Of a DNA stretch of 64,000 nucleotides, positions 1-20,835 are shown piece after piece; the first letter of the stretch is position 1; every line of letters starts with the position of its first letter. The notes under the pieces were generated by a model. It did not search any database. It was not told the origin of the DNA and saw only the letters and a program-made list of their open reading frames with translations. A program made the position numbers and the translations under genes. The stretch comes from Rhizobium sp. CCGE531 (lineage in GTDB: Bacteria > Pseudomonadota > Alphaproteobacteria > Rhizobiales > Rhizobiaceae), in contig NZ_CP032687.1 of assembly GCF_003627795.1 (NCBI RefSeq), positions 513,597 through 577,596 on the forward strand, written 5' to 3'.

Positions 1-441
1 ATTAGCTATCATCGTAGCGCGAGTGGCTATAGTGACGAGATCATTCAACTGCTGCCCGCACTCGTTATGAAGGAGTTGTCTCCTCATCCACATGGTTGGC
101 AAGCGCTGTTGGCTCCCCGTGGCGCGCCTTTGCGAACAGTAGAAGCCGATCGTATCGTACTTGCCACCGGTTTTCAGCCTCGCTCGCTTCCGTTCATCGA
201 TCGCCTATTGGCTTCCGCCGTCATCGAAGATGACCTGCCGGTCGTAGATGAAGATTACGCCGTTCAATTCAAGGATAGTGCTCCAGGCCAGGTTTATCTG
301 CAGAGCCGGACGCGCGTCCAAAACGGCTTGCAGAGTGTGAATTTGTCACTCGTAGCGTACCGAAATAGCCGCATCGTCAATAGACTGCTCGGGCGTGATC
401 ATTATGCGAACGTCCCAGATCGGCAGATCTTCGGGGTCTAG
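1..441 (+). CDS. Lysine/ornithine N-hydroxylase family flavoprotein (C-terminal part, cut by window edge)
   Basis: The reading frame is open from base 1 and ends at 441, so only about the last 146 residues are present. They contain the ATGF motif typical of the SidA/IucD/PvdA flavin monooxygenase family and, near the end, NGLQSVNLSLVAYRNSRIVN, which matches the conserved C-terminal NLSLVAWR-type signature of these enzymes. The family uses FAD, NADPH and O2 to hydroxylate the side-chain amine of lysine or ornithine. It is usually part of siderophore pathways, but also supplies N6-hydroxylysine to hydrazine synthetases. The same-strand PhyH, cupin and MetRS-like genes that follow favour the second role here. 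Substrate (Lys or Orn) cannot be read from this fragment. Confidence 0.8.
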   Translation: MSYHRSASGYSDEIIQLLPALVMKELSPHPHGWQALLAPRGAPLRTVEADRIVLATGFQPRSLPFIDRLLASAVIEDDLPVVDEDYAVQFKDSAPGQVYLQSRTRVQNGLQSVNLSLVAYRNSRIVNRLLGRDHYANVPDRQIFGV

Positions 442-615
442 AATGGCAACATGCAAGAACAAAAGGATCGATAATTCTCCGCAAAAGCAATGCAGCTCGC
501 CAAACAGCACCGTGCACAAGGACAAACGGGCGACATTTCCATGAACCGGCAAACTGCCTTCTCAACCGGGGCAGCTTTTTCAGGCAGATCAATTCTGATG
601 AGGAGAGACTTACCC

Positions 616-1395
616 ATGTTAACCGAAGCACAAAAAGCAACATGGCATAAAACTGGATACCTCAAGTTAGAGGAATTTTTCGACCAGGAAAGTCGTGACC
701 GTCTCTCAACTCTTGTCGAAGATATTTCGTGCTGGGAGATAAGCGACGACAAATGGTTGATGTGGTTCGAAAAAACGACGGACAACAAAAAAATAATTTC
801 CAAGGTCGAGAACTTCCTCGAATTCAATGCCCCTCTGCGTGACCTGATCCTGGCTGACCACCGTATCGAGTCAATCGTCGAGTCCTTGTTGGAGGAAGAT
901 GCCCGGATGCTCAAAGAGCTGCTGATCTTCAAATATCCCGATAGTGGCGGCTATCGCCCGCATCAGGACATCTACCATGTCCCTCATAAGCTGCCAGACC
1001 GGATGGTCCATGCAATTGTTGCAATCGGCATCGACGATTCCGGCCCAGACAATGGAGGGCTTTTCTTCAGCCCCGCCAATCACAAGAAGGGTGTATTTCC
1101 GATGGATGCCGGCGGTGTGATTTACCCCGACATCGTCGAAACGTTCGCCTGGGAGCCGGTGTCATGGAAGGCCGGCGACATCTTTATCTTTGACGATTAT
1201 GCGCCGCATTATTCGAAACCTAATAAAAGTGAAAATTCCCGGAGGGTAATTTACTTGGTGTTCCAGCGCGCTTCCACCGGGGGCCCAACGCGGGCCGAGT
1301 ACAACAAACTCAAGCGCGCCTACAATCCTCCCGAGGGCAAGGTCTCCAACATCGATGAACTCAAGCCGCCGAACGGCATTTTCTATCGCGAGTGA
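616..1395 (+). CDS. PhyH-family Fe(II)/2-oxoglutarate dioxygenase
   Basis: A 259-residue protein of the phytanoyl-CoA dioxygenase family, which hydroxylates small molecules or amino acids using Fe(II), 2-oxoglutarate and O2. The iron triad is visible as His116-x-Asp118 (PHQDIYH) and His198 (PHYSKPN), and Arg209 is placed to bind 2-oxoglutarate. The ATG at 616 is preferred because GAGGAGAG lies 8-10 bases upstream; the frame is open further upstream but without a comparable ribosome site. It sits between an amine N-hydroxylase and a cupin/MetRS-like pair on the same strand, 21 bases before the cupin, so it is probably a tailoring enzyme of that pathway. Its substrate is not known. Confidence 0.8.
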   Translation: MLTEAQKATWHKTGYLKLEEFFDQESRDRLSTLVEDISCWEISDDKWLMWFEKTTDNKKIISKVENFLEFNAPLRDLILADHRIESIVESLLEEDARMLKELLIFKYPDSGGYRPHQDIYHVPHKLPDRMVHAIVAIGIDDSGPDNGGLFFSPANHKKGVFPMDAGGVIYPDIVETFAWEPVSWKAGDIFIFDDYAPHYSKPNKSENSRRVIYLVFQRASTGGPTRAEYNKLKRAYNPPEGKVSNIDELKPPNGIFYRE

Positions 1396-1416
1396 AGCAC
1401 CGCGTGGGAGGCAAAC

Positions 1417-1746
1417 ATGTATACGAAACAGATCGACGGCTCAATCATGCGCCCGGAGTTTGGCGTTCTGGTGTGCCGATTGCTTGAACATCTGCCGCAG
1501 ACGGTCGCAACGGGCTTCGGGACTTCGATTGTGGAGGTGGTGGCGAACGGTGCAGTCGATCTTCATTCGCACCCAGAGCACGAACTTTGGGTACTGATCT
1601 CGGGCAGTGGCGTGTTCGAAGCCGACGGCGAAACCACGGCGGTCGGCGAGAACACGTTGCTCTACATAAGGCCACACCAAACGCACGCGATCAAAAATAG
1701 CGACCCTGAAACCAGTCTGAAGTTCTTTTCGATATGGTGGGATTGA
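1417..1746 (+). CDS. Single-domain cupin, candidate N-N bond-forming half of a hydrazine synthetase
   Basis: A 109-residue protein that is one cupin barrel. Cupin motif 1 reads DLHSHPEHELWVLISG, giving metal ligands His50, His52 and Glu56; motif 2 supplies His90 (RPHQTHAI). GGGAGG lies just before the ATG. The stop codon is at 1744-1746 and the next gene starts at 1748, so the two are almost certainly translationally coupled. In the established hydrazine-forming enzymes (Spb40, Tri28) a zinc cupin of this kind is fused to a MetRS-like domain and rearranges an ester of N6-hydroxylysine and an amino acid into an N-N bond. Here the two parts are separate, adjacent genes. The function is inferred from that context; a cupin alone would be uninformative. 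Confidence 0.75.
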   Translation: MYTKQIDGSIMRPEFGVLVCRLLEHLPQTVATGFGTSIVEVVANGAVDLHSHPEHELWVLISGSGVFEADGETTAVGENTLLYIRPHQTHAIKNSDPETSLKFFSIWWD

Positions 1747-1747
1747 A

Positions 1748-3337
1748 TTGAGCGTAAAGCAAAAAACTTACTTTGCCTGCTCGGCGCCCCCATGCCCGAA
1801 TGGAAAGCTGCACCTTGGGCATATTGGAGGGGTGTACCTGCTAACAGACGTGTTCATACGCTTTCAGCGAATGGTAGGGAATGCGGCCTATCACGTAACA
1901 GGTGCTGATGAACATGGCACTTATACGCTGTTGAAAGCCCGCAAGCTTGGCAGGCCAGTTGATGACGTTGCACAAATGCACATTGATGAAATCCTGCGTT
2001 GTCTGCGGGTAGTAGATATTGAGCCGGACGTATTTGTCAGGACTTCAAGCGAAGACCACAAAGAGCGAAGTCTCGCAATCTACGACCAACTAAGAGCCTT
2101 AGGCTACATCGAGCTGCGGGACGCAGAGCAATTGTATTGCGAAACGTGCGGAGAGTTCGCAGCAGACTCACTTGCGATCGGGCGGTGCCCGGCTTGCAAT
2201 GCGGAAACAGATAGTAACCTTTGCGAAGATTGCGGCCTCGCGCTGCAGCACAATCTACTACGCAATCCCATCCACACCGTATGCGGATGCAGCCTTGTTT
2301 TACGACCGATCCGCCAGGCCCATTTTGACCTCAAGAAATTTGCTCCCGCACTTGATGACGCCATTGAGGCCAGCAGATGGCCGGAGACCATAAAATGCAA
2401 AGAACGCGACTGGTTACGGACAAAATTGCGGTCATTGCCAATGTCGCGGCATTTCGATCGTGGTGTGACGTTGAGCTCCCCGGCAGATGTGGCAGGTCAA
2501 ACTCTGCTGACGTGGTTTGAAGGATTGTGGTGCTACGAGACAGGAATCGAACGCATCTGCAAGCAAAGTGGTGCAGATCTTGACGACACTTTGCGTGACC
2601 CGAATACGAAACTCGTATTCTTCATGGGCCAGGATAACCGATTTTATTATACGATCGGCGTCACTGCTGGTTTGTTCGCACGTGGTTACGCGATCCCACA
2701 CAATCATGCGATCCAGGACTTTTATAAACTCGAAAGCGCAAAATTTTCTACTGGCCGCGATCATGCTTTGTGGGCTGACGAGGTGGCGGCAGACATCGAC
2801 ACGAACGTGCTGCGCTATTATTTGGCCAGCATTGCAAAGCCATTTGGCAGAAACGACAACGATTTTCTGATCGAGGGGCTGGTTCAGGCGGAGGTGCGCA
2901 TTCATGCTTTCGAAACCGTTTTGCGCCGACACGCTGGATGTAACGAGACGCTGAGGGTCGACAAACTCACGCGCGAGCAGATCCACAATGCTAAACGGTA
3001 TTGCGAAGCCATGGAGGACACGCGCGTTTGGGATGCTCTAAATGCGTTGAACGCTTTTTTCGACGCTGCGAGTTTTTCAAAGACAGGTACCTTGGTCAGC
3101 GCAACGGAAATTTCGGTATTCCTGAGCCTTCTTTATCCGGTGACCCCGACACTTGCGGCTCGCTATGGTGCTTGCTTTTTCGGACTCGGATGGCGACCCC
3201 GGCTCTATGACGAAGCTATTCAGCCAAGTGCAGGCTCACGTGAAGCGATTGATTTCACCCGATTTGCCCGCCCGATTCCGGCCGCCTTTATAGCAGCCTA
3301 CCAAAAACGATTTAGGCAACCACAGACGAAGGCGTGA
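1748..3337 (+). CDS. Methionyl-tRNA synthetase-like protein, candidate amino-acid-activating half of a split hydrazine synthetase
   Basis: A 529-residue class I aminoacyl-tRNA synthetase fold resembling MetRS. The HIGH signature is H22-L-G-H25. Eight cysteines (131, 134, 147, 150, 159, 162, 179, 181) form the double zinc-knuckle insert of MetRS. The KMSKS loop is altered to K332-F-S-T-G. The start is TTG at 1748, one base after the stop of the cupin gene. Housekeeping metG genes are normally chromosomal and not coupled to a cupin; in Spb40/Tri28-type enzymes the MetRS-like domain activates an amino acid (glycine in the studied case) for esterification to an N-hydroxylamine. A plain second MetRS is the alternative, but the altered KMSKS and the neighbours make that less likely. 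Confidence 0.8.
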   Translation: MSVKQKTYFACSAPPCPNGKLHLGHIGGVYLLTDVFIRFQRMVGNAAYHVTGADEHGTYTLLKARKLGRPVDDVAQMHIDEILRCLRVVDIEPDVFVRTSSEDHKERSLAIYDQLRALGYIELRDAEQLYCETCGEFAADSLAIGRCPACNAETDSNLCEDCGLALQHNLLRNPIHTVCGCSLVLRPIRQAHFDLKKFAPALDDAIEASRWPETIKCKERDWLRTKLRSLPMSRHFDRGVTLSSPADVAGQTLLTWFEGLWCYETGIERICKQSGADLDDTLRDPNTKLVFFMGQDNRFYYTIGVTAGLFARGYAIPHNHAIQDFYKLESAKFSTGRDHALWADEVAADIDTNVLRYYLASIAKPFGRNDNDFLIEGLVQAEVRIHAFETVLRRHAGCNETLRVDKLTREQIHNAKRYCEAMEDTRVWDALNALNAFFDAASFSKTGTLVSATEISVFLSLLYPVTPTLAARYGACFFGLGWRPRLYDEAIQPSAGSREAIDFTRFARPIPAAFIAAYQKRFRQPQTKA

Positions 3338-3477: not shown

Positions 3478-4947
3478 TCAATTGTTTAGCGTCGATCGGA
3501 TTGGCGTCCTTCGCGTTCCTATGGAGCGAATCTGCCTTATTCGCTGCATAATCCTTTCCGCCTGATCAACAATTTCGGGCACCGAGGTAAGTTCACCGAA
3601 CGTCCCCCGGGCCAATGGGCCGGCAATGAACAGGTCATCGACGGGTGTCCCGTCCCGTGCTAAGGCGCGATTCTCGCGATCGCATTTGATGCCGAGACCA
3701 TGCGGATCCTTTGTGATCAAAGCGGCGCGCTCGAGGTCCAACAAACAGGCCTGGCTGCCGATTACATTCTCATGATCGGGGCCGGTTGCGAGAATCAGCC
3801 ACTGTGCGCGGTCCTTCTCTATATTGCCATGCGGCGTAGTTGCGACGTCGACTAAAATGTCTCGGCTGCCGCATTCGGCGGAAACTATTCTTCCCGCACG
3901 AATGTGGAGGCGACCAGCTGCTGTCTCGCGGGCGACGAGTTCCTTGATTTGAGGTGGCATCCGGAAGCGGTGGATGTCGTACCATCTACGAAGATGGCGC
4001 AAGAAACACCGTTGCTCCTCGAGCGGCAGCGCCTGCCATATTGCCTGCCCCTGATGCCGCAGCGCATCGAAAACGATCTGCCAGGGCAATCTTTTTTCCG
4101 TTACGTCGCTGATAGCCAATCGAACCTGTCGCAGAAGGCAAAGCGCCGTCTTAGGAACGCGTTTTAGCAAGTCATCACCGTCTAGCGTGAAGCTGCCCGT
4201 CGCGTGGGGCCGCGGCAGACGTCCTGAACGCGACAATAAAGTGATCTCTCCACTATGACCGCGAGCGCGCAAGGTTGCTAGCACGTCAAGTGCGGTCAAT
4301 CCGGCACCGATGATCCATATATTGTCCCTTTGCTGGATCTTTTGAAAAGCGCCAGAGGTAGAGGGATTTGAGACAAAACGTGGATGAAATTGCAGCGCAG
4401 AAGCAAATTGTGCTGGCGTCCTTGGTGGCGGATGACCGGTAGCAACAACGACGATGTCGGCGTGAAGGATCGTCCCGGCATTTCCTTCGATTCGCCAGCG
4501 GCCATTCTGTCGATGAATGCGCTCGACACGCTCGCACGCATGTATGATGCTGCCATTTTCGAGAAGCGGCCGCATCTCATTGTCCATGAAGTCCGCAAAA
4601 TCACCTCTCCGTGCATAGATTGCTCCCTCTGTTCCAGCCTCCGGATCTCGCCCAGCACGACCGGTTTCACAAAACCAGCGGGCGAACCTCTGCGGGTCTC
4701 CGGGTATTGCCCGCATCCGGTGGGCGGCAACGTTTAAGCGAAGTGACGGATCATTTGTGTCGTAGGCAACGCCGGCACCAAGGCGCGACCTTGGCTCGAA
4801 GACCACAATCTCATCAGGCTCGAACAGGCCTGAGAGTGCGAGCAAGCGACTTATCGTCGCCCCACTGAACCCGCCTCCGACAATGGCCACCCGGCTCACG
4901 GTAGTCAACGAAGGCGACGGTTCTTGTGAGGACTGCATTGGTTTCAA
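3478..4947 (-). CDS. FAD/NAD(P)-binding oxidoreductase (NAD_binding_9 type)
   Basis: About 490 residues with an N-terminal dinucleotide-binding motif (VAIVGGGFSGATIS), the family block GVAYDT...LRLNVAAHRM typical of FAD/NAD(P)-binding PF13454 proteins, a second Rossmann motif (IWIIGAGLTALDVL) near the middle, and a C-terminal block ending FIAGPLARGTFGELTSVPEI. It is probably a soluble flavoprotein oxidoreductase. Substrate unknown. It is convergent with the MetRS-like gene, 140 bases away, and may belong to the same pathway. The start is uncertain: the TTG at 4947 has AAGGGAG 9 bases upstream and is chosen; ATG at 4938 and GTG at 4992 are alternatives. Confidence 0.75.
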   Translation of the reverse strand: MKPMQSSQEPSPSLTTVSRVAIVGGGFSGATISRLLALSGLFEPDEIVVFEPRSRLGAGVAYDTNDPSLRLNVAAHRMRAIPGDPQRFARWFCETGRAGRDPEAGTEGAIYARRGDFADFMDNEMRPLLENGSIIHACERVERIHRQNGRWRIEGNAGTILHADIVVVATGHPPPRTPAQFASALQFHPRFVSNPSTSGAFQKIQQRDNIWIIGAGLTALDVLATLRARGHSGEITLLSRSGRLPRPHATGSFTLDGDDLLKRVPKTALCLLRQVRLAISDVTEKRLPWQIVFDALRHQGQAIWQALPLEEQRCFLRHLRRWYDIHRFRMPPQIKELVARETAAGRLHIRAGRIVSAECGSRDILVDVATTPHGNIEKDRAQWLILATGPDHENVIGSQACLLDLERAALITKDPHGLGIKCDRENRALARDGTPVDDLFIAGPLARGTFGELTSVPEIVDQAERIMQRIRQIRSIGTRRTPIRSTLNN

Positions 4948-5209
4948 TAAACCTAACTCCCTTCGGCTAACAGTGGCTGAAACAATGCACACTTATTTTA
5001 TAGATTCAATCCATAAATATGTTGTCCCGGGTCCGGCATTTACCTCGAGCGCCGTGAGCACAATCTTGGGGTCGAGACTTAATTGGGTTCACAATGAGAT
5101 CGCCACGGCGAGACAGACGCCCGATAGGGAGATGTCCGCTGTCGTGGCGATGCGTTGGAGATCCTTGAGCCGCGCTCTACCGCCTGACGAGAGCTGACAC
5201 GGAAGAGAA

Positions 5210-8757: not shown

Positions 8758-8805
8758 ATCCATGACGTAGATCAGTGTGATCCGAACAACCAATTTTTCC
8801 AAACA
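8758..8805 (+). promoter_or_regulatory. nod box (NodD binding site) upstream of the nodT-like gene
   Basis: The sequence starts ATCCATGACGTAGATC, continues with GTGTGATCCGAACAA and ends ATTTTTCCAA. This follows the order and spacing of the rhizobial nod box (ATCCAY..., GATG, ATC-N-AAACAATCRATTTTACCAATC) over about 47 bases. Nod boxes bind the LysR regulator NodD and allow transcription in response to plant flavonoids. The next gene on this strand starts at 8930, about 125 bases after the box. A second, closer match sits upstream of nodM in this window. Confidence 0.7.
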
Positions 8806-8929
8806 GTCGCGTGCCATTATCAAGCGTAAAAAAAGATGAAGCTGTAAGTTAGGCAGCGTCGTCATCGAAGCGCCGAGTGTCACGTTTCCCCTAAGAGCGT
8901 GATCATGTAATTCAATCGTAGGTAACGTG

Positions 8930-10384
8930 ATGATATCCATTCGTACAGCCGCCCCCGCCCTGCTGCTTCTGCTGGCAGGTTGCGTCAGCGGCCCCGAGCA
9001 TAAGACACCGGAAATGCCCCTAGCGGCCAAGTTCTCGGAGGGCGGTACGAAGATCAACGGCGACGTCGCAGGTTCGCAATGGTGGACCGCCTTCGGCGAC
9101 AGGAAGCTGAATGCCTTGGTTGAACAAGGACTTGCAGAAAACCTCAATATCCAGCAGGCGCTGGAGCGCATCAATCAGGCGCAGGCGCAGGTCGTCAGCG
9201 CTGCGGCCGGCGGAATGCCGAGCCTTCTCGTGTCAGGCAGCAACACGCTCAGGGGCGAAAAGGGCAGTCAGCGCAACAAGAGGGAAACGGAAAACACCAC
9301 CGGCGGCGGCCTCACGGCTTCGTGGCTGCTCGATCTGTGGGGCCAATACCGTCGCGCCAAGGAAAGCGCCAACGCATCGCTGGATGCGGCCTATTCCAAC
9401 GTCGACGTTGCTCGCCTGACCTATCTCCGGGATCTGGCAAACAGCTACGTCAATGTCCGCTATTATCAGGCCCGCGTCGCGATCGCACGGGACAACCTGA
9501 AGTCTCGCCGCGAAACGCTTGAACTCACCAAATTCCAGCTCGATGCCGGCGCCGTTTCCCGCCTCGACGTTGTCCAAGCCGAAGGTCTCGTCAACTCGAC
9601 GCTTTCCGAAATTCCGGGCCTCGAAATCAGCTACCGTCAGGCCGTGCATCATATCGCAACCCTGCTGAACGTACCGTCGGCAACCATTATCGCCCAGTTG
9701 CAGGGTGGCGGCGTCCAGCCGGTATTCCCCGGTCGCGTCAATTCCGGCGTCCCGGCCGACCTCATCCGCAACCGGCCCGACATCCGGGTCGCCGAGCGTA
9801 ACCTTGCCGCTGCGACCGCTCAGATCGGCGTGGCGGAGGCCCAGCTCTATCCGACGATCACGCTCGGCGGTTCGATTTCGCCGTCCTATACCCATACGAA
9901 GTCCAACAACGGCAACCTGACGAAATGGTCGTTCGGTCCGAGCCTGTCGCTGCCGATCTTCGATGGCGGCGCATTGCGCGCCAATGTCAAGAGTGCCGAA
10001 TCCACCAGCCGCGAGCGGTATATCGTCTGGAAGCAGACCGTGCTGTCTGGTGTCGAACAGGTCGAAAGCGCCCTGTCGGCCGTCAGCCGCGATGCCCAGA
10101 CGGTTGGCGCACTGCGGGCGCAGGTGAAGTCGTATCAGGAAGCCCTCGATCTTTCCACGGAAAGCTATAAGGACGGCGCATCTTCGCTTCTCGACGTTCT
10201 CGACGCGCAGCGTTCGGTTTCTAATGCGCAGGAAAGCCTCGCTGAGGCCGTCCAGCAAAGCGCTCTCGACTACATCTCTCTGAACATCACGATCGGCGCC
10301 GGCTATATTCCCGCCGAAAAGCCGACTGTTGTTGCGAAGCCGGCCACGTTTGTCAAAGTCGCCGCCGAGCAGGCACGGAACTGA
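8930..10384 (+). CDS. nodT: NodT-like outer-membrane efflux lipoprotein (RND OMF)
   Basis: A 484-residue TolC-fold outer-membrane factor of the NodT/OprM family. It starts with a lipoprotein signal (APALLLLLAGC, lipobox LLAGC, acylated Cys at about residue 18), has the family block WWTAFGD near the N-terminus, and two repeated outer-membrane efflux domains; RNRPDIRVAERNLAAATAQI lies at the start of the second. It would form the outer-membrane duct of a tripartite pump. The ATG at 8930 is chosen over the GTG at 8927. A nod box about 125 bases upstream suggests flavonoid/NodD control, as for nodT in R. leguminosarum. The only RND partners in the window are at 13.5-17.8 kb on the other strand. 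Confidence 0.85.
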   Translation: MISIRTAAPALLLLLAGCVSGPEHKTPEMPLAAKFSEGGTKINGDVAGSQWWTAFGDRKLNALVEQGLAENLNIQQALERINQAQAQVVSAAAGGMPSLLVSGSNTLRGEKGSQRNKRETENTTGGGLTASWLLDLWGQYRRAKESANASLDAAYSNVDVARLTYLRDLANSYVNVRYYQARVAIARDNLKSRRETLELTKFQLDAGAVSRLDVVQAEGLVNSTLSEIPGLEISYRQAVHHIATLLNVPSATIIAQLQGGGVQPVFPGRVNSGVPADLIRNRPDIRVAERNLAAATAQIGVAEAQLYPTITLGGSISPSYTHTKSNNGNLTKWSFGPSLSLPIFDGGALRANVKSAESTSRERYIVWKQTVLSGVEQVESALSAVSRDAQTVGALRAQVKSYQEALDLSTESYKDGASSLLDVLDAQRSVSNAQESLAEAVQQSALDYISLNITIGAGYIPAEKPTVVAKPATFVKVAAEQARN

Positions 10385-12866: not shown

Positions 12867-13045
12867 TCAGTCCCCGACGTTATCTTAGAACGAACTCTCC
12901 AGACTGCATTGTCCGGCAAATCGGTATAGGCTATCTCCTCCAAAAAATCAGGAGAAAAAGCACAGGATAACGGCGATGTAACTGATCTGACATGCGTCAC
13001 AGCCCGACCGTACCGCCTCTCACACAATGATGCATGTTGGTCTAC

Positions 13046-16500: not shown

Positions 16501-16682
16501 GTCTCGAGCTGCGTCGGCGCAGCGCCGTCGAGCGTGGCGGTGACACTGATAGTCGGCAGGTCCATATCCGGAAAGTACTGAACCGCCAGCTGTTTGAATG
16601 CCCAAAGCCCGCCAAATCCAAACATCACAAACAGCAATATCGCTGGTATGGGATTGCGGATCGAGAAGGCGGAGAAATTCAT
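13512..16682 (-). CDS. RND-family efflux permease
   Basis: A 1056-residue AcrB-type inner-membrane antiporter. It has an N-terminal helix (NPIPAILLFVMFGFGGLWAF), a first porter domain, the family TM4 motif with the two proton-relay aspartates (VVGILVDDAIVEIENI), and a second half-repeat ending with QPLTLLMALPLSLGGALVPL and further helices. It drives export of toxic compounds using the proton gradient, with the membrane fusion protein encoded just upstream; the two genes overlap by one base (TGATG). The C-terminus has an unusual soluble tail of about 50 residues. The outer-membrane partner is not in this operon; the nodT-like gene 3 kb away could supply it. Substrate unknown. Confidence 0.9.
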   Translation of the reverse strand: MNFSAFSIRNPIPAILLFVMFGFGGLWAFKQLAVQYFPDMDLPTISVTATLDGAAPTQLETEVARTIEDSLTSLSHLDHILTTITDGTVSTKVSFKLQKDSETALNEVRNAVDSVKADLPAQMATPIVTKATVQSSALVTYAVRSTALNETELSWFVDNDLTKALLSVPGVGQVNRIGGIDREVHVDLDPSTMASFGVTAATVSAQLKAVQADKSGGLGEVGGTRQTLRTLGAVESVGALRELTIPLANGQQARLDDIASVKDSFAERSSMAYLDGKPVIAVEIKRSNGFSDSSVSADVSTAMKNFAASHPNVQIHAVYSLIGSILGNYDGSMHILYEGAILAIVVVWLFLRDWRATILSAVALPLSAIPTFLVMYLAGFSLNVVTLLALSLVVGILVDDAIVEIENIARHLQMGKRPIDAAMEAANEIGLAVIATTFTLVAVFLPTAFMSGIPGLLFRQFGITAAVAVVASLVVARLLTPMMAAYFMKAHPSEQKDGRIMRAYMALAKAALDHRKTTVAVTAVVVAVSLSVIPLLRTGYLPAADDSRTQITLTLQPGATVEQTDAATRKAADILSEIPDVTHVFAAVGSGSSGGGATVARSSVGSAAIVATLTPIDGRDRKQSEIENDIRQALSVLPGVRVAVGIGNGTKLEFTLASDDANALDSASTALEEQLRTLQGIGAVTSTAARQAPEIQITPDFARAAALGVTSNAIASAVRVATNGEYSSDLPKLNLPQRQIPIVVRFSPETRTNLDDIKNMRVPGAKGNVDLGSIADIRIGGSPSEIDRIDRMRNVTVSVELNGRILGDVNREAKALPALQHLPPGVTLVEHGELQRSSELFQSFALAMAIGVFCIYTVLVLLFHDFLQPLTLLMALPLSLGGALVPLVVTGTSFSMPAVIGLLMLMGVVTKNSILLIEYAIMSRRRGMSRFDALVDACHKRARPIVMTTLAMASGMLPAALSLSGGDSSFRQPMAIVVIGGVMISTLLSLIIIPVIFTFVDDLQNLLKSFNRRALRRHATCGRETEFSNLPGDLGGDTGKSLEMTPSQHKVIEPTP

Positions 16683-17755
16683 CAGTTCTTCTCCGCAATC
16701 TTCACGAGGTCATTGTCCGACAGAAAGGCACCGCCCGACGTCACGACCTTCGACGACCGATCGATGCCGAAGACGATCTCGACTTCACCATTGTTGCGGC
16801 GGCCGGTTTCGACGCGGACCCGTCGCACCCGCTTGTCCTCGCCGGCGGTGAAGACGTAGCTGATGCCATCCCGGAACACGATTGCGGTCTCGGGGACGGT
16901 GAGCGCCGGTGTGGTCTGCAACTCGATGCTGCCCGTGACGTAGAGGCCGGTCCGCGGACGAATGTCGGCGGGAAGCGCGACATAGACGATCGCCCGGCTG
17001 GTGTCGGTGCTGACCGAGGGTCCGACAAGCCGCACCTTGCCGGCAATGACGTGACCTTCCGGCCCGTTGATCCTAACGCTCAGGCCTTCCGAAATCCGCG
17101 GCAGATAACGCGCCGATACTTCGGCCTGCCATTCGACACGCTGCTGGCGCACCATGCGGAACAGCTCGGTGCCGGTGGAGACGACGGCGCCGAGGTTGGC
17201 GGAACGCGAGGTTATGAGGCCATCGTCGGCGGCGGTGATGGTCGTATGCGCAAGCTTGATCTTTTCGCCGTCGAGCGCTGCTTCCTCCGATGTCAGGCTT
17301 GCCGTCGCCGTCTGCTCGTCCGCCAGATATTCAGTGATTTTCTCGTCGGCGAGGGCCCCCGAAGTGCTGAGCTGGCGTGCACGATCCGCATTCGCCTTGG
17401 CCTTTGTCAGATTTGCCTTGGCAGTCACGACAGCCGCCTCCTGCTTGCGAAGGTCCGCCAGTACGCTGTCCTGCGAAAGCCGGGCCAGCGTCTGCCCCTT
17501 CGTGACCACGGACCCGACATCCGCCAGGACGTCGGTGATGCGCAGGCCGCTCGTCTCGGAGGCGATGATTGCTTCCTGCCAGGGTTTCAGCCAGCCGCTC
17601 GCGGGAACGGTTTCCGGCCAGTCCCGTATTGCCGGCGCCGTCAGAGAAACGGTCAGAGCGGGTGCGGCCGCCTGTTCAGCCATGCTATTGGCGCAGGGAA
17701 ACTGGAGTGCTGCACAGACAAGAACGGCAACGAGTAGAAGACACGGTTTTCTCAA
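16682..17755 (-). CDS. RND efflux membrane fusion protein (periplasmic adaptor)
   Basis: A 357-residue HlyD/AcrA-type adaptor. It has an N-terminal signal sequence (LLLVAVLVCAALQFPCANSMA), a biotinyl-lipoyl-like half domain (SETSGLRITDVLADVGSVV), a coiled-coil hairpin (about residues 105-165, alanine-rich), the second lipoyl half (TTITAADDGLITSRSANLGA), a beta barrel and a membrane-proximal domain. It links the RND permease, with which it overlaps by one base, to an outer-membrane channel. It is the first gene of the two-gene operon. No regulator lies directly next to it. Confidence 0.9.
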   Translation of the reverse strand: MRKPCLLLVAVLVCAALQFPCANSMAEQAAAPALTVSLTAPAIRDWPETVPASGWLKPWQEAIIASETSGLRITDVLADVGSVVTKGQTLARLSQDSVLADLRKQEAAVVTAKANLTKAKANADRARQLSTSGALADEKITEYLADEQTATASLTSEEAALDGEKIKLAHTTITAADDGLITSRSANLGAVVSTGTELFRMVRQQRVEWQAEVSARYLPRISEGLSVRINGPEGHVIAGKVRLVGPSVSTDTSRAIVYVALPADIRPRTGLYVTGSIELQTTPALTVPETAIVFRDGISYVFTAGEDKRVRRVRVETGRRNNGEVEIVFGIDRSSKVVTSGGAFLSDNDLVKIAEKN

Positions 17756-17851
17756 ATGGCAATTCCTCGCAGTTCACGGGTGTCCGCGCGCAACCGTGGC
17801 GTCAAAAATGTCGGCTGTTGTGGTGCAAAGTTGAAATGCCTGACGGTCTCG

Positions 17852-17966
17852 AAGGTGACAAAACTCAACTGTTCAAAACATCTTGGCGACACCAGTGATG
17901 TCGGGCTATTCCGCCATCCAAAGCAGCAGTTTTTTGTCGGCGACTCCGTCAGAGATCGCCAATCAG
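17852..17966 (+). repeat. Diverged repeat, copy A (probable mobile-element remnant)
   Basis: Lies within 17756-18179, a 424-base stretch with no supported gene. It resembles 25166-25270 over about 105 bases; the core is GTGATGTCGGGCTATTCCGC here and GTGATTTCGGGCTACTCTGC there. The matching frames read DVGLFRHPKQQFFVGDS and DFGLLCHPRRQAPVGNS, with most changes preserving the frame, so both look like pieces of a once-coding element. The parent element could not be named. Confidence 0.4.
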
Positions 17967-18179
17967 CTGCTGGATTGAGCCAGGATTGGGCGCGCTCGCC
18001 AACTATAACAAGACCACCTACGGCCGGGGAGAGGCTAGCGTTTTGAGGACACTGGCATCCGATTGGACCAGGGAAACACAGAGTCAAAGTTGTCTTCGAG
18101 GAGGTGAATACCGCTAAATCGCCTCTTAAGGTTCGCGTGGGACAATAGAGCCTGTTGCGCCGACGTTTGCTGCGTCTGG

Positions 18180-18710
18180 TCATCCTATTGCGTATGCTGC
18201 TTCCTCGACAGCTCGGCCTACACGCATGCGGATGGCCTCGGAAATCACCTCCCCGTGGGCGAAGTCATTACGGGTGGCATAGATTGCGGTCGGCATCGCA
18301 AGCGCTTCAAAGAACCCGAACAGAGGGCGCAACTGATGCTCGACGACAAGCGAATGACGCTCGCCTCCGCCCGTCGCAGCGATGATGATAGGCTTGCCCC
18401 TCAGCGATGTTGGATCGAGCAAATCGAAATAGTGCTTGAATAGGCCGGTGTAACTGCCCTTGTAGGTGGGTGAGCCTACAACCAGGACATCTGCCTCCAG
18501 CATTTGGTCTACGACCCCGCGTGCTTGAGCGTTAAGGTCGTCTAGCCGTTTGGCCGCCAATAGTGAAGGTCCAAGGTCATCGACATCGAAGGACTGCGCC
18601 ACCGCTCGCGTTTTGATTGCCAATTGCCCGACGATATGGTCGACGAATGTGCGCGTCGTGGACGGTCGTGTTATGTTCCCCGAGAAGCCAAATATCTTCG
18701 TTTGCGGCAT
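18180..18710 (-). CDS. NADPH-dependent FMN reductase (flavodoxin-like fold)
   Basis: A 176-residue flavoprotein of the SsuE/MsuE family. KIFGFSGNITRPSTTR near the N-terminus is the FMN phosphate-binding loop, and VVGSPTYKGSYTGLFKHYFD is the diagnostic second flavin-contact motif. It reduces FMN with NAD(P)H and usually supplies FMNH2 to a two-component monooxygenase. No such monooxygenase is adjacent. GGAG lies 6 bases before the ATG at 18710, so that start is chosen over the in-frame TTG at 18722. It lies 71 bases downstream of nodM on the same strand and could be transcribed with it from the nod box. Confidence 0.85.
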   Translation of the reverse strand: MPQTKIFGFSGNITRPSTTRTFVDHIVGQLAIKTRAVAQSFDVDDLGPSLLAAKRLDDLNAQARGVVDQMLEADVLVVGSPTYKGSYTGLFKHYFDLLDPTSLRGKPIIIAATGGGERHSLVVEHQLRPLFGFFEALAMPTAIYATRNDFAHGEVISEAIRMRVGRAVEEAAYAIG

Positions 18711-18781
18711 GTCGATCTCCAAATGCTCAGCAGTTATAAGTCATCTAAACTCTGTCATTCGTCCCTTACGGAAACGATGAC

Positions 18782-20608
18782 CTATTCGACGGTGACTGAT
18801 TTCGCCAGATTGCGCGGCTGATCGACGTCCGTGCCCGCAAACACGGCCGTATGATAGGCGAGTAATTGGACCGGCAGCGAGAAGATCATCGGCGCAATGA
18901 TCTCGTCCACATTTGGAAGAACGATTGTTTGCATCGTGTCGAGCTTCAAGGCGCGAGCGCCCTTCTCATCCGTGATCAAGATGATCCGTCCGCCGCGGGC
19001 CGCAACCTCCTGCATGTTGGAAGCGGTCTTATCGAAAAAGCGGTCGTGCGGTGCGATCACGATAACCGGCATGTTCTCATCGATGAGAGCAATTGGACCG
19101 TGTTTCAGTTCGCCGGCAGCATACCCTTGCGCGTGAATATAGGAAATCTCCTTTAGTTTCAGGGCGCCTTCCATGGCCAAAGGGAAGCTGGTTCCGCGGC
19201 CAAGATAGAGCACGGCGCGGCACTTTGCCAATTCACGCGATAGAAGTTCGATCCTGGGTTGGATGCTGTTGAGCACCTGCCCCATGACGCGCGGCATCTC
19301 GGCAAGCCGGCCGACCAGTGTCTGTTCCTCCTTCTCCGTAAGGGTGCCACGCGCCCTGCCGGCAGCAACCGCGAGCGCAGCCAATACGGCGAGTTGGCAT
19401 GTAAAGGCCTTCGTAGACGCAACGCCGATCTCCGGTCCGGCGAGGATCGGGAACACAGTGTCGGACTCTCGTGCTATCGTCGATTCGGGCGTGTTGACGA
19501 CTGCACCGGTCTTCAAGCCGTGCTCCTTGCAATAGCGTAGGCAAGCAAGTGTATCGGCCGTCTCGCCCGATTGTGAGATGAAGAGAGCTGCCACCTGTGG
19601 CGAGAACGGGATTTCGCGGTACCGAAATTCGGAGGCGACATCAATTTCGACCGGCAGACGTGCGTAGTGCTCGAACCAGTATTTGCCGATCAGTCCGGCC
19701 AAGTACGCAGTGCCGCAGGCGGAGATCGCCAAGCTTTGCACGTTGGCGAAGACGGTGTCGCGCCAAGCCGCGACCACCTGATTGTCGCTGAAGTTGAGGT
19801 AATGGCCAAGGGTATCGGAGATGGCCTCCGGCTGGTCGTAAATCTCCTTCTCCATGAAATGGCGATAGTTGCCCTTGTCGATCATATGGGCCGTCACCAC
19901 CGAGATCTGCCGCGGTCGGGTGGTGACCTTTCCGTCGATATCGAAGATACGTACGCCAGTCTTGTCGATGACCGCCCAATCGCCGTCGATCAGGTAGGTG
20001 ATCTCGTTAGTGAAGGGCGCCAGCGCAATCGCGTCCGATCCGAGAAACATCTCGCCGCTTCCGTGACCGATCGCGAGCGGCGGGCCATTCCGGGCAGCCA
20101 TGATGGTCGAAGGGTCCTCCTCGAAGAGCAGAGCCAGCGAGTAAGCGCCTCGGACGCGCTTCAGCATCGCATGCATAGCTTCGCGCCGGCCCATGCCGTC
20201 CCGGCGAAGTCTTGCCACGAGATGCGCGATGACCTCCGTGTCGGTGTCGGTTTGGAACTCGGTGCCGGCCGCGGTCAGCTCATCCTTCAATTCGGCGAAA
20301 TTCTCGATTATCCCATTGTGGACGACTGCGATGCCGTCGCTAAAATGTGGGTGGGCATTGCGTTCCGTCGGCGCGCCATGGGTTGCCCAGCGCGTATGGC
20401 CAATGCCGATTGTGCCCGCCAGGGGCTGTTCTTTCAGCTTTGCTTCAAGGTTGAGGAGCTTGCCCTCACAGCGCCGGCGATGGAGCGCTCCACCGTCGAT
20501 CGTCGCGACGCCTGCCGAATCGTAGCCACGATATTCAAGCCGTTTCAATGCGTCTATCAGCCGGTCCGAAACCGGATGATGGCCGACAATACCCACAATC
20601 CCGCACAT
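18782..20608 (-). CDS. nodM: Glucosamine-6-phosphate synthase, NodM-type second copy
   Basis: A 608-residue glutamine:fructose-6-phosphate aminotransferase, close to the usual 609. The protein starts MCGIVGIVG with catalytic Cys2 for the N-terminal glutaminase, followed by two SIS isomerase domains (LSQSGETADT; SFPLAMEGALKLKEISYIHA) and the conserved C-terminus DQPRNLAKSVTVE. The ATG at 20608 has CGGAG 6 bases upstream; the open frame reaches further upstream but Cys2 must be near the start. It makes glucosamine-6-phosphate for UDP-GlcNAc, the precursor of Nod-factor backbones. A nod box about 180 bases upstream makes this the symbiotic copy (NodM) rather than the housekeeping GlmS. Confidence 0.9.
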   Translation of the reverse strand: MCGIVGIVGHHPVSDRLIDALKRLEYRGYDSAGVATIDGGALHRRRCEGKLLNLEAKLKEQPLAGTIGIGHTRWATHGAPTERNAHPHFSDGIAVVHNGIIENFAELKDELTAAGTEFQTDTDTEVIAHLVARLRRDGMGRREAMHAMLKRVRGAYSLALLFEEDPSTIMAARNGPPLAIGHGSGEMFLGSDAIALAPFTNEITYLIDGDWAVIDKTGVRIFDIDGKVTTRPRQISVVTAHMIDKGNYRHFMEKEIYDQPEAISDTLGHYLNFSDNQVVAAWRDTVFANVQSLAISACGTAYLAGLIGKYWFEHYARLPVEIDVASEFRYREIPFSPQVAALFISQSGETADTLACLRYCKEHGLKTGAVVNTPESTIARESDTVFPILAGPEIGVASTKAFTCQLAVLAALAVAAGRARGTLTEKEEQTLVGRLAEMPRVMGQVLNSIQPRIELLSRELAKCRAVLYLGRGTSFPLAMEGALKLKEISYIHAQGYAAGELKHGPIALIDENMPVIVIAPHDRFFDKTASNMQEVAARGGRIILITDEKGARALKLDTMQTIVLPNVDEIIAPMIFSLPVQLLAYHTAVFAGTDVDQPRNLAKSVTVE

Positions 20609-20786
20609 ACATTCTCCGCGTTTTCGCATATCGGCCACAACGCACTCACCTAGTCCGTCAGTCTGGAGTGAGCGAAGCTGCTTCACTCCTTGATCGCCAT
20701 GACGGCTATCATTCCGTCAGAACTCCGTGGCAAAACCGTCGTGCTGTCGCGCTAAGCCAAATTCAGCGCGTTCTAACGGCACTCGA

Positions 20787-20835
20787 CTTATTGGAAAAAT
20801 CGATTCTTTGGATCGCACCCATTTACGTCATGGAT
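20787..20835 (-). promoter_or_regulatory. nod box upstream of nodM
   Basis: On the minus strand the sequence begins ATCCATGACGTAAATG, continues GATCCAAAGAATCGATTTTT and ends CCAAT. This is a close match to the nod box consensus including the highly conserved ATC-N-AAA-N-AATCGATTTT-CCAAT half. It begins about 225 bases before the nodM start and points at it, so nodM is expected to be switched on by NodD and flavonoids. Confidence 0.8.

Follow-up and report, generated by a model that had tools for sequence, protein, structure and literature searches.

A predicted split hydrazine synthetase operon with a PhyH-family dioxygenase on a symbiotic plasmid of Rhizobium sp. CCGE531

The stretch analysed here, 64,000 nucleotides of Rhizobium sp. 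CCGE531 (the window; G000:C4:513597-577596), forms the right end of a 577,596 bp contig (NZ_CP032687.1), which is taken to be a symbiotic plasmid because it carries three nodA genes without internal stops (G000:C4:110703, 193428 and 231690). At the left edge of the window lies a gene cluster that is probably an operon for a small exported compound with an N-N bond, in which a PhyH-family Fe(II)/2-oxoglutarate (2OG) dioxygenase would stand in place of the Spb39-type flavin oxidase. The initial annotation had proposed a hydrazine synthetase (HS) split into a cupin and a protein resembling methionyl-tRNA synthetase (MetRS), next to an N-hydroxylase on a symbiotic plasmid, and the sequence comparisons support this proposal. 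The three checks that it set out as able to overturn it, on the MetRS phylogeny, the full first gene and a structural model of the cupin, all turned out in its favour. It gave the PhyH protein no role; PhyH proved to be the most informative gene of the set.

The window opens within the first gene, which was completed from a left-hand stretch (L002, where a position equals the window position + 15000). A MocR-type regulator with an aminotransferase-like domain (listed frame L002:11452-12918, minus strand) is divergent to five genes on the plus strand, in the order major facilitator superfamily (MFS) transporter, lysine/ornithine-type flavin N-monooxygenase (NMO), PhyH, cupin and MetRS-like protein. 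The MFS gene ends at L002:14113, with candidate starts at ATG 12854, which fits the annotated start in Rhizobium sp. CB3090, and at 12902, which was used here. The NMO gene covers L002:14170-15441, or begins at ATG 14197, the start of the annotated CB3090 gene, and window positions 1..441 hold its C-terminal part. PhyH (259 aa) is encoded at 616..1395; its listed frame opens at 490, and the start at 616 was taken from the equivalent annotated CB3090 gene. The zinc-type cupin (109 aa), the predicted N-N-forming half of the synthetase, lies at 1417..1746 and the MetRS-like protein (529 aa), the predicted amino acid activating half, at 1748..3337. A single base (1747) separates the cupin stop from the TTG start of the MetRS-like gene. 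The coordinates and Pfam matches agree with the initial description of four consecutive genes on one strand, the last two one base apart. The reading frames of all six genes are open. Ratios of nonsynonymous to synonymous substitution (dN/dS) were 0.06-0.22 for the four core genes in comparisons with CB3090, Mesorhizobium amorphae and Rhizobium phaseoli, which shows that the NMO, PhyH, cupin and MetRS-like genes are maintained; the MFS gene gave 0.16 against CB3090. Beyond the cluster the window continues with a flavoprotein gene on the opposite strand (3478-4992), which is not the gene that follows the cluster in CB3090 or M. amorphae.

The two halves of the predicted synthetase matched Pfam Cupin_2 (2.4e-11) and tRNA-synt_1g (2.4e-69). 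His50, His52, Glu56 and His90 of the cupin, named at the outset as a zinc site, are present and invariant in 19/19 aligned window-type cupins, the window's own included; a wider alignment of 18 rows has H52, E56 and H90 in 18/18 and H50 in 17/18. The predicted cupin structure superposes on the zinc cupin RHS1 (PDB 5UQP), its best structural match at 26% identity, a fit at the level of the fold, with low confidence for the first ~30 residues. The best structural match of the MetRS-like protein is PyrN (PDB 9L8V; 24% identity over the aligned MetRS part). Its ATP-site motifs are HLGH and KFSTG (KFSTG/S), and among 35 sequences H22-H25 are invariant and K332, equated with PyrN K458 by motif and not by alignment to the full PyrN, is at least 90% conserved. 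The amino acid pocket motifs are unlike both those of PyrN and those of the type-B (SAT1/SM11 type) enzymes. In a tree of 53 rows, made by a quick method without bootstrap, the protein falls inside an HS clade apart from housekeeping MetRS (SH-aLRT 99 for the HS clade, 100 for the window lineage, which is 12 rows with one long branch, and 93 for the remainder). The best NCBIfam model scored 249.4 against a cut-off of 587, and the protein is below the curated cut-off of every NCBIfam model that it matched. With the tree, these scores and conserved synteny, identification as a housekeeping or spare MetRS was rejected. The other MetRS genes of the genome are at C1:2040023 and C3:625183. The latter (C3:625183-625611; L005:379-1956, minus strand) encodes a second divergent MetRS of 525 aa, which pairs with the C1 gene (L004) in the tree and may be a spare or resistance-type gene.

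The complete first gene is an N-hydroxylase, as had been proposed from its C-terminal part, and matches Pfam Lys_Orn_oxgnase at 1.5e-100. Its nearest NCBIfam model is histamine N-monooxygenase, a name not earned because the score of 256 bits is below the cut-off of 700. Solved structures ranked by whole-sequence score came in the order 6xbb (which we take to be a cadaverine enzyme), 5o8p, MbtG, 7us3 (putrescine hydroxylase) and PvdA. The substrate site reads SPLKDC and DDSAFVN. MbtG and PvdA are alike (FLKDL; DDSPFxN), and 6xbb, 5o8p and 7us3 have no lysine at the position of the KD motif, a lysine kept in 16/16 NMOs of the HS clusters compared; the KD and DDSxFxN residues presumably hold the amino acid carboxylate. 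Identity as a diamine N-hydroxylase, favoured by the whole-sequence score of 6xbb, was rejected on these motifs. The predicted substrate is lysine or ornithine, most likely L-lysine, which is favoured because a type-B NMO, the kind found with Spb39-like oxidases, replaces the window-type NMO in Mesorhizobium albiziae.

PhyH matched its Pfam family at 3.3e-32, and H116, D118, H198 and the R209/R210 pair are invariant in 12/12 aligned sequences; by analogy with the family these would be the metal triad and the 2OG arginine. A pattern scan of 84,980 species genomes, requiring one of two conserved peptides, gave 39 loci: 37 of the window type (L011-L047), one broken copy (L048) and one distant protein (L049). 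PhyH was found in 35 of the 37 window-type loci, which are not all independent and include one partial case, in six genera, and an intact Spb39-type flavin oxidase (DAO family) in 0/37. No match to the oxidase was obtained in L002, L007 or L008, and among the 37 loci a remnant occurs in L020 only. The other HS loci gave a whole oxidase in 8/11 (L009, L064, L066, L067, L068, L078, L079 and L080) and a window-type PhyH in 0/11; the oxidase is cut by the record end in L069 and absent in L010 and L070. The oxidase model derives from those eight loci, which match it by construction, so presence there rests on annotation, with Pfam DAO matches for five. The count excludes L081, where a MetRS has neither a cupin nor an NMO beside it, and L056-L063, short loci of uncertain type, among which L057 has a weak oxidase match (32 bits). 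Among the loci examined, PhyH and the flavin oxidase exclude each other.

Three Mesorhizobium loci suggest how the exchange may have occurred. Mesorhizobium sp. 131-3-5 (L065, adjoining the nif-specific fdxB) and sp. L-8-3 (G598, L077) carry a fused HS together with PhyH. Their PhyH is 76% identical to the window's, their NMO only 35%, and the cupin and MetRS parts of the fused HS are 27.5% and 29-30% identical to the window proteins. Between NMO and PhyH both loci hold the N-terminal half of a Spb39-like oxidase (not the full gene) and a scrap of a window-type NMO; between PhyH and the fused HS lies a scrap of the oxidase C-terminus (48% over 50 residues with one stop in L065, 54% over 24 residues in L077). 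The order NMO, oxidase, HS is found in SAT1, SM11, R. rhizogenes and three further Streptomyces loci. Given this order and the oxidase pieces on both sides of PhyH, a segment with the end of a window-type NMO gene and PhyH lies within the oxidase gene of an operon otherwise of type B. In M. albiziae (L020, G676) a type-B NMO (85% identical to that of L065) is followed by oxidase and NMO scraps and then by window-type PhyH, cupin and MetRS-like genes, all open. In an NMO tree in which, as the program warned, clade A and the outgroup are joined through long branches, the NMOs of L020, L065 and L077 form one set (100/100) inside clade B (94/92), and the window NMO is in clade A (100/100). Each of seven scraps had a best score of 34-56 bits, whereas 400 versions of these stretches with shuffled codons gave 78 hits in total, none above 29.6 bits; the control did not cover the L077 oxidase C-end scrap (30.0 bits). 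Sampled genomes yielded only G598 as a further Mesorhizobium locus with fused HS, a total of two such loci plus M. albiziae. A protein search with the fused HS of L065 gave 32 fused HS proteins 84-95% identical to it, of which the one from L077 was examined in its gene context. We infer from these sequences that PhyH took over from the oxidase in processing the hydrazine adduct. Since a type-B NMO occurs with window-type cupin and MetRS-like genes, and a window-type PhyH with a type-B HS, the two systems would share the hydroxylamine and perhaps the adduct.

In the proposed pathway, the NMO would act on a basic amino acid, most likely L-lysine, and hydroxylate its side-chain amine; the MetRS-like protein would activate a second amino acid with ATP and hand it to the hydroxylamine oxygen; and the stand-alone zinc cupin would rearrange the unstable ester into an N-N linked adduct. 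The close fit to a characterised enzyme family argues for these three steps. PhyH would then oxidise the adduct, hydroxylation at the carbon next to the hydrazine letting the C-N bond break and freeing a hydrazino acid, a step suggested by the gene replacement in related loci. Gene order points to export by the MFS protein and to the divergent regulator, which, being of the MocR type (by family a pyridoxal 5'-phosphate, PLP, binding protein), may sense the product because hydrazines react with PLP. An extended form of this proposal is somewhat unlikely to hold in full: PhyH would be a hydrazine-releasing Fe(II)/2OG dioxygenase that cuts the adduct C-N bond in rhizobia, plant-associated Burkholderiales and Pseudomonas, the exported hydrazino acid would hit PLP enzymes of the plant or of rival microbes as rhizobitoxine does, and MocR would be the sensor in Rhizobium and Mesorhizobium. 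That hydrazines inhibit PLP enzymes is an idea from general chemistry, joined here to the gene order; a search of the open-licence literature on PLP inhibitors found nothing that speaks directly for the hydrazinoacetate idea.

Several findings weigh against the operon as proposed. An extra PLP enzyme is present in 24 of the 26 window-type loci outside Rhizobium (in pieces in three) and not in the window; the exceptions are L020, where it is missing, and L042, which is cut before its place. It is also missing from CB3090 and from 11/11 Rhizobium loci of the pattern scan, and when the rest of the genome was searched for the PLP aminotransferase, the best matches, which include the MocR gene, reached 30-31% identity. 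The window pathway may therefore be incomplete, or end elsewhere. Evidence for the PhyH replacement comes from a single family of loci in three genomes, where individual oxidase queries also matched the remnants at 26-32 bits, a range that overlaps that of the shuffled controls. By whole-sequence score the NMO is nearest to 6xbb, contrary to its lysine/ornithine motifs. Since the MetRS-like pocket is unlike those of PyrN and type B, the activated amino acid, and with it the adduct, need not be the same; with a different second amino acid, PhyH would act on the common lysine part.

The alternative that deserves most attention, possible though not what we expect, is that a hydrazine is made but PhyH is a tailoring enzyme, acting on the early lysine part or on the finished product and not at the Spb39 step, with the oxidase remnants marking a DNA joint. 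PhyH enzymes mostly hydroxylate carbon without chain breakage, and the closest NCBIfam model is methylphosphonate hydroxylase (171.9 bits, cut-off 500). Against tailoring, PhyH and a whole flavin oxidase never occur together in the loci examined, and PhyH sits inside a broken oxidase gene. The PLP enzyme might free the product in window-type loci instead, yet it is absent from the window, CB3090, L020 and every Rhizobium locus of the scan. It is distinctly improbable that the pair belongs to a deep lineage without N-N formation, giving an ester, amide or other N-acyl product from the hydroxylamine, for instance a siderophore-like part. The window lineage does stand apart from every other HS of the tree, on a long branch of 0.96 changes per column, and has pocket motifs of its own, but every aligned window-type cupin keeps all four PyrN-type metal residues, and RHS1 is the best match to the cupin model. 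The operon of L020 includes a type-B NMO, and in L065 and L077 a fused HS takes the corresponding position. Around the L007 and L008 clusters the annotation, which is incomplete, mentions no siderophore gene. Pfam and NCBIfam both call the MetRS-like protein a methionine--tRNA ligase. A spare or resistance-type enzyme with unrelated neighbours is nevertheless extremely improbable in view of the tree, the sub-threshold scores, PyrN as the best structural match and the clustering with NMO, PhyH and cupin conserved over several genera.

Comparison with known systems draws on parts of the cited papers. Stand-alone cupin/MetRS-like pairs have already been studied, with a mechanism in print (Zhao 2021, PMC8664883), and several are listed in a review (PMC11705231), so the split, which the initial annotation had treated as novel, is not new. 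RHS1 of Rhodococcus jostii RHA1 and its MetRS-like partner (PMC8664883) resemble the window pair in separate genes, an N6-lysine hydroxylase and a zinc site; the RHA1 cluster was found via pyrL, a saccharopine dehydrogenase-like gene, whereas the window has PhyH. PyrN of pyrazomycin (PMC8664883) has the same four metal residues as the window cupin, even with the same numbers, but is fused and uses L-Glu, whereas the window pair is split and has a different pocket. Spb38/Spb39/Spb40 (s56-p1) and relatives make hydrazinoacetic acid with an NMO and a cupin/MetRS HS, like the window (PMC11705231, PMC13274452); there the HS is fused and the flavin oxidase Spb39 cleaves the adduct C-N bond to hydrazinoacetate and aminoadipate semialdehyde (PMC13274452), whereas the window has a split HS, PhyH and no oxidase. 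The review describes the step after HS with the flavin oxidases Spb39, Tri27 and Apy10, and the words dioxygenase, oxoglutarate and phytanoyl have 0 occurrences in it. Its Table 2 also lists Q8KGM6, an HS from Mesorhizobium japonicum R7A; as an enzyme, HS has therefore already been published for a rhizobium. Listed as one accession, Q8KGM6 is probably fused, unlike the window pair, and is likely the type-B HS of L065. The part of PMC5011921 consulted concerns housekeeping MetRS only. The initial view that no rhizobial N-N pathway had been described thus stands for the cluster itself and not for rhizobial HS: searches of the PMC open-licence library retrieved no paper whose title or abstract start deals with the window cluster of rhizobia or with a cupin/MetRS hydrazine pathway that includes a PhyH. 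The new part is the PhyH. N-N bond biosynthesis uses few enzyme types, and an Fe(II)/2OG replacement, if true, would be a different chemistry for the post-HS step. If nodule bacteria made a reactive hydrazine, this would matter for their host range, for competition or for the control of plant hormones.

Within the genus Rhizobium the MetRS-like gene was found in 19/148 genomes, broken or partial in three. A wider sample of the order gave matches at 1e-25 in 11/397 genomes, four of them (all Rhizobium) 79-100% identical and seven 27-31%. The full gene set is present in the window and in CB3090. Outside Rhizobium the usual order is NMO, MFS, PhyH, cupin, MetRS-like, PLP enzyme; M. amorphae has the Rhizobium order with the MocR gene, plus the PLP enzyme. 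In bean symbionts the cluster is decaying. R. phaseoli R630 has it between nodA and nodD2/nodD3, with the MFS gene reduced to residues 346-401 directly behind an IS66 element. NMO, PhyH and part of the cupin are lost in R. etli p42d (L006) and R. aethiopicum (L015, L018), the MetRS-like frame is broken in L045 and L046, and the NMO is rearranged in L017. In nine of the 11 Rhizobium loci of the pattern scan only the part of the MFS protein from residue 213 onward is present, but eight of these contigs end there. The cluster also occurs in P. fuscovaginae and Ralstonia and is therefore not tied to nodulation.

The nod boxes ascribed to the plasmid were recovered in the window, at some distance from the cluster. 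Judged by the nod box consensus, one site at 8758..8805 (plus strand) differs at 6/40 specified positions and precedes an outer-membrane efflux gene (NodT-like, by eye; 8927-10384), and another at 20788..20835 (minus strand) differs at 5/40 and precedes a NodM-like gene (by eye; 18782-20686, minus strand). Of three shuffled windows, one gave 13 mismatches at best and two nothing at 14 or fewer. Both sites are context, not part of the cluster, and the search for a nod box directly before the cluster found none. A weak site (10/40 differ; L002:8569-8616) immediately precedes a different gene and is 4.3 kb upstream of the MFS gene. A search of the window for eight nif/nod marker proteins gave no match. 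Such markers occur near 13 of the 41 loci searched (11 Rhizobium, L065 and L077), nodD2 being near the cluster in 11/11 Rhizobium loci of the pattern scan, and nodA and nif genes are also near it in two complete bean-symbiont plasmids. Near the other 28 loci, many of them short stretches, no marker was found; these include CB3090, M. amorphae, M. albiziae and every Bradyrhizobium and Paraburkholderia locus. An RND (resistance-nodulation-division) adaptor gene (nolF-like, by eye) lies near the nod box-like sites (8758-10384 and 16682-20835). The gene after the weak site, starting ~50 bases on (region to 9487), encodes 273 aa with glycine-aspartate-rich RTX-like repeats and is NodO-like by eye.

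Other N-N clusters were met among the loci compared. L064 (Sinorhizobium meliloti pSmeSM11b, and also plasmids of other S. meliloti and S. medicae) has a fused HS, NMO, flavin oxidase, MbtH, nonribosomal peptide synthetase, acyl carrier and GNAT genes, and probably specifies a separate N-N pathway, azaserine-like or related, carried on accessory plasmids of rhizobia. L009 (Streptomyces sp. SAT1 plasmid) has a fused HS with lysine 2,3-aminomutase, methyltransferase and peptide ligase genes, a set that resembles what the structure of negamycin would lead one to expect of its cluster. Another cluster on a Rhizobiaceae plasmid, L066 (Rhizobium rhizogenes pC5.7b), combines a fused HS with flavin oxidase, glutathione S-transferase, phosphoenolpyruvate mutase-family, dapA-like and Rieske genes. 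Split HS clusters (NMO, cupin, MetRS-like) are present on Enterobacterales plasmids in L067 (Pantoea agglomerans pAR24_C, typed conjugative), which additionally has a flavin oxidase and an MFS gene, and in L069 (Klebsiella variicola pBM374-1). In the Lotus symbiont Mesorhizobium sp. 131-3-5, a 1-aminocyclopropane-1-carboxylate deaminase gene (L065:14728-15741) lies a few kb downstream of the fused HS.

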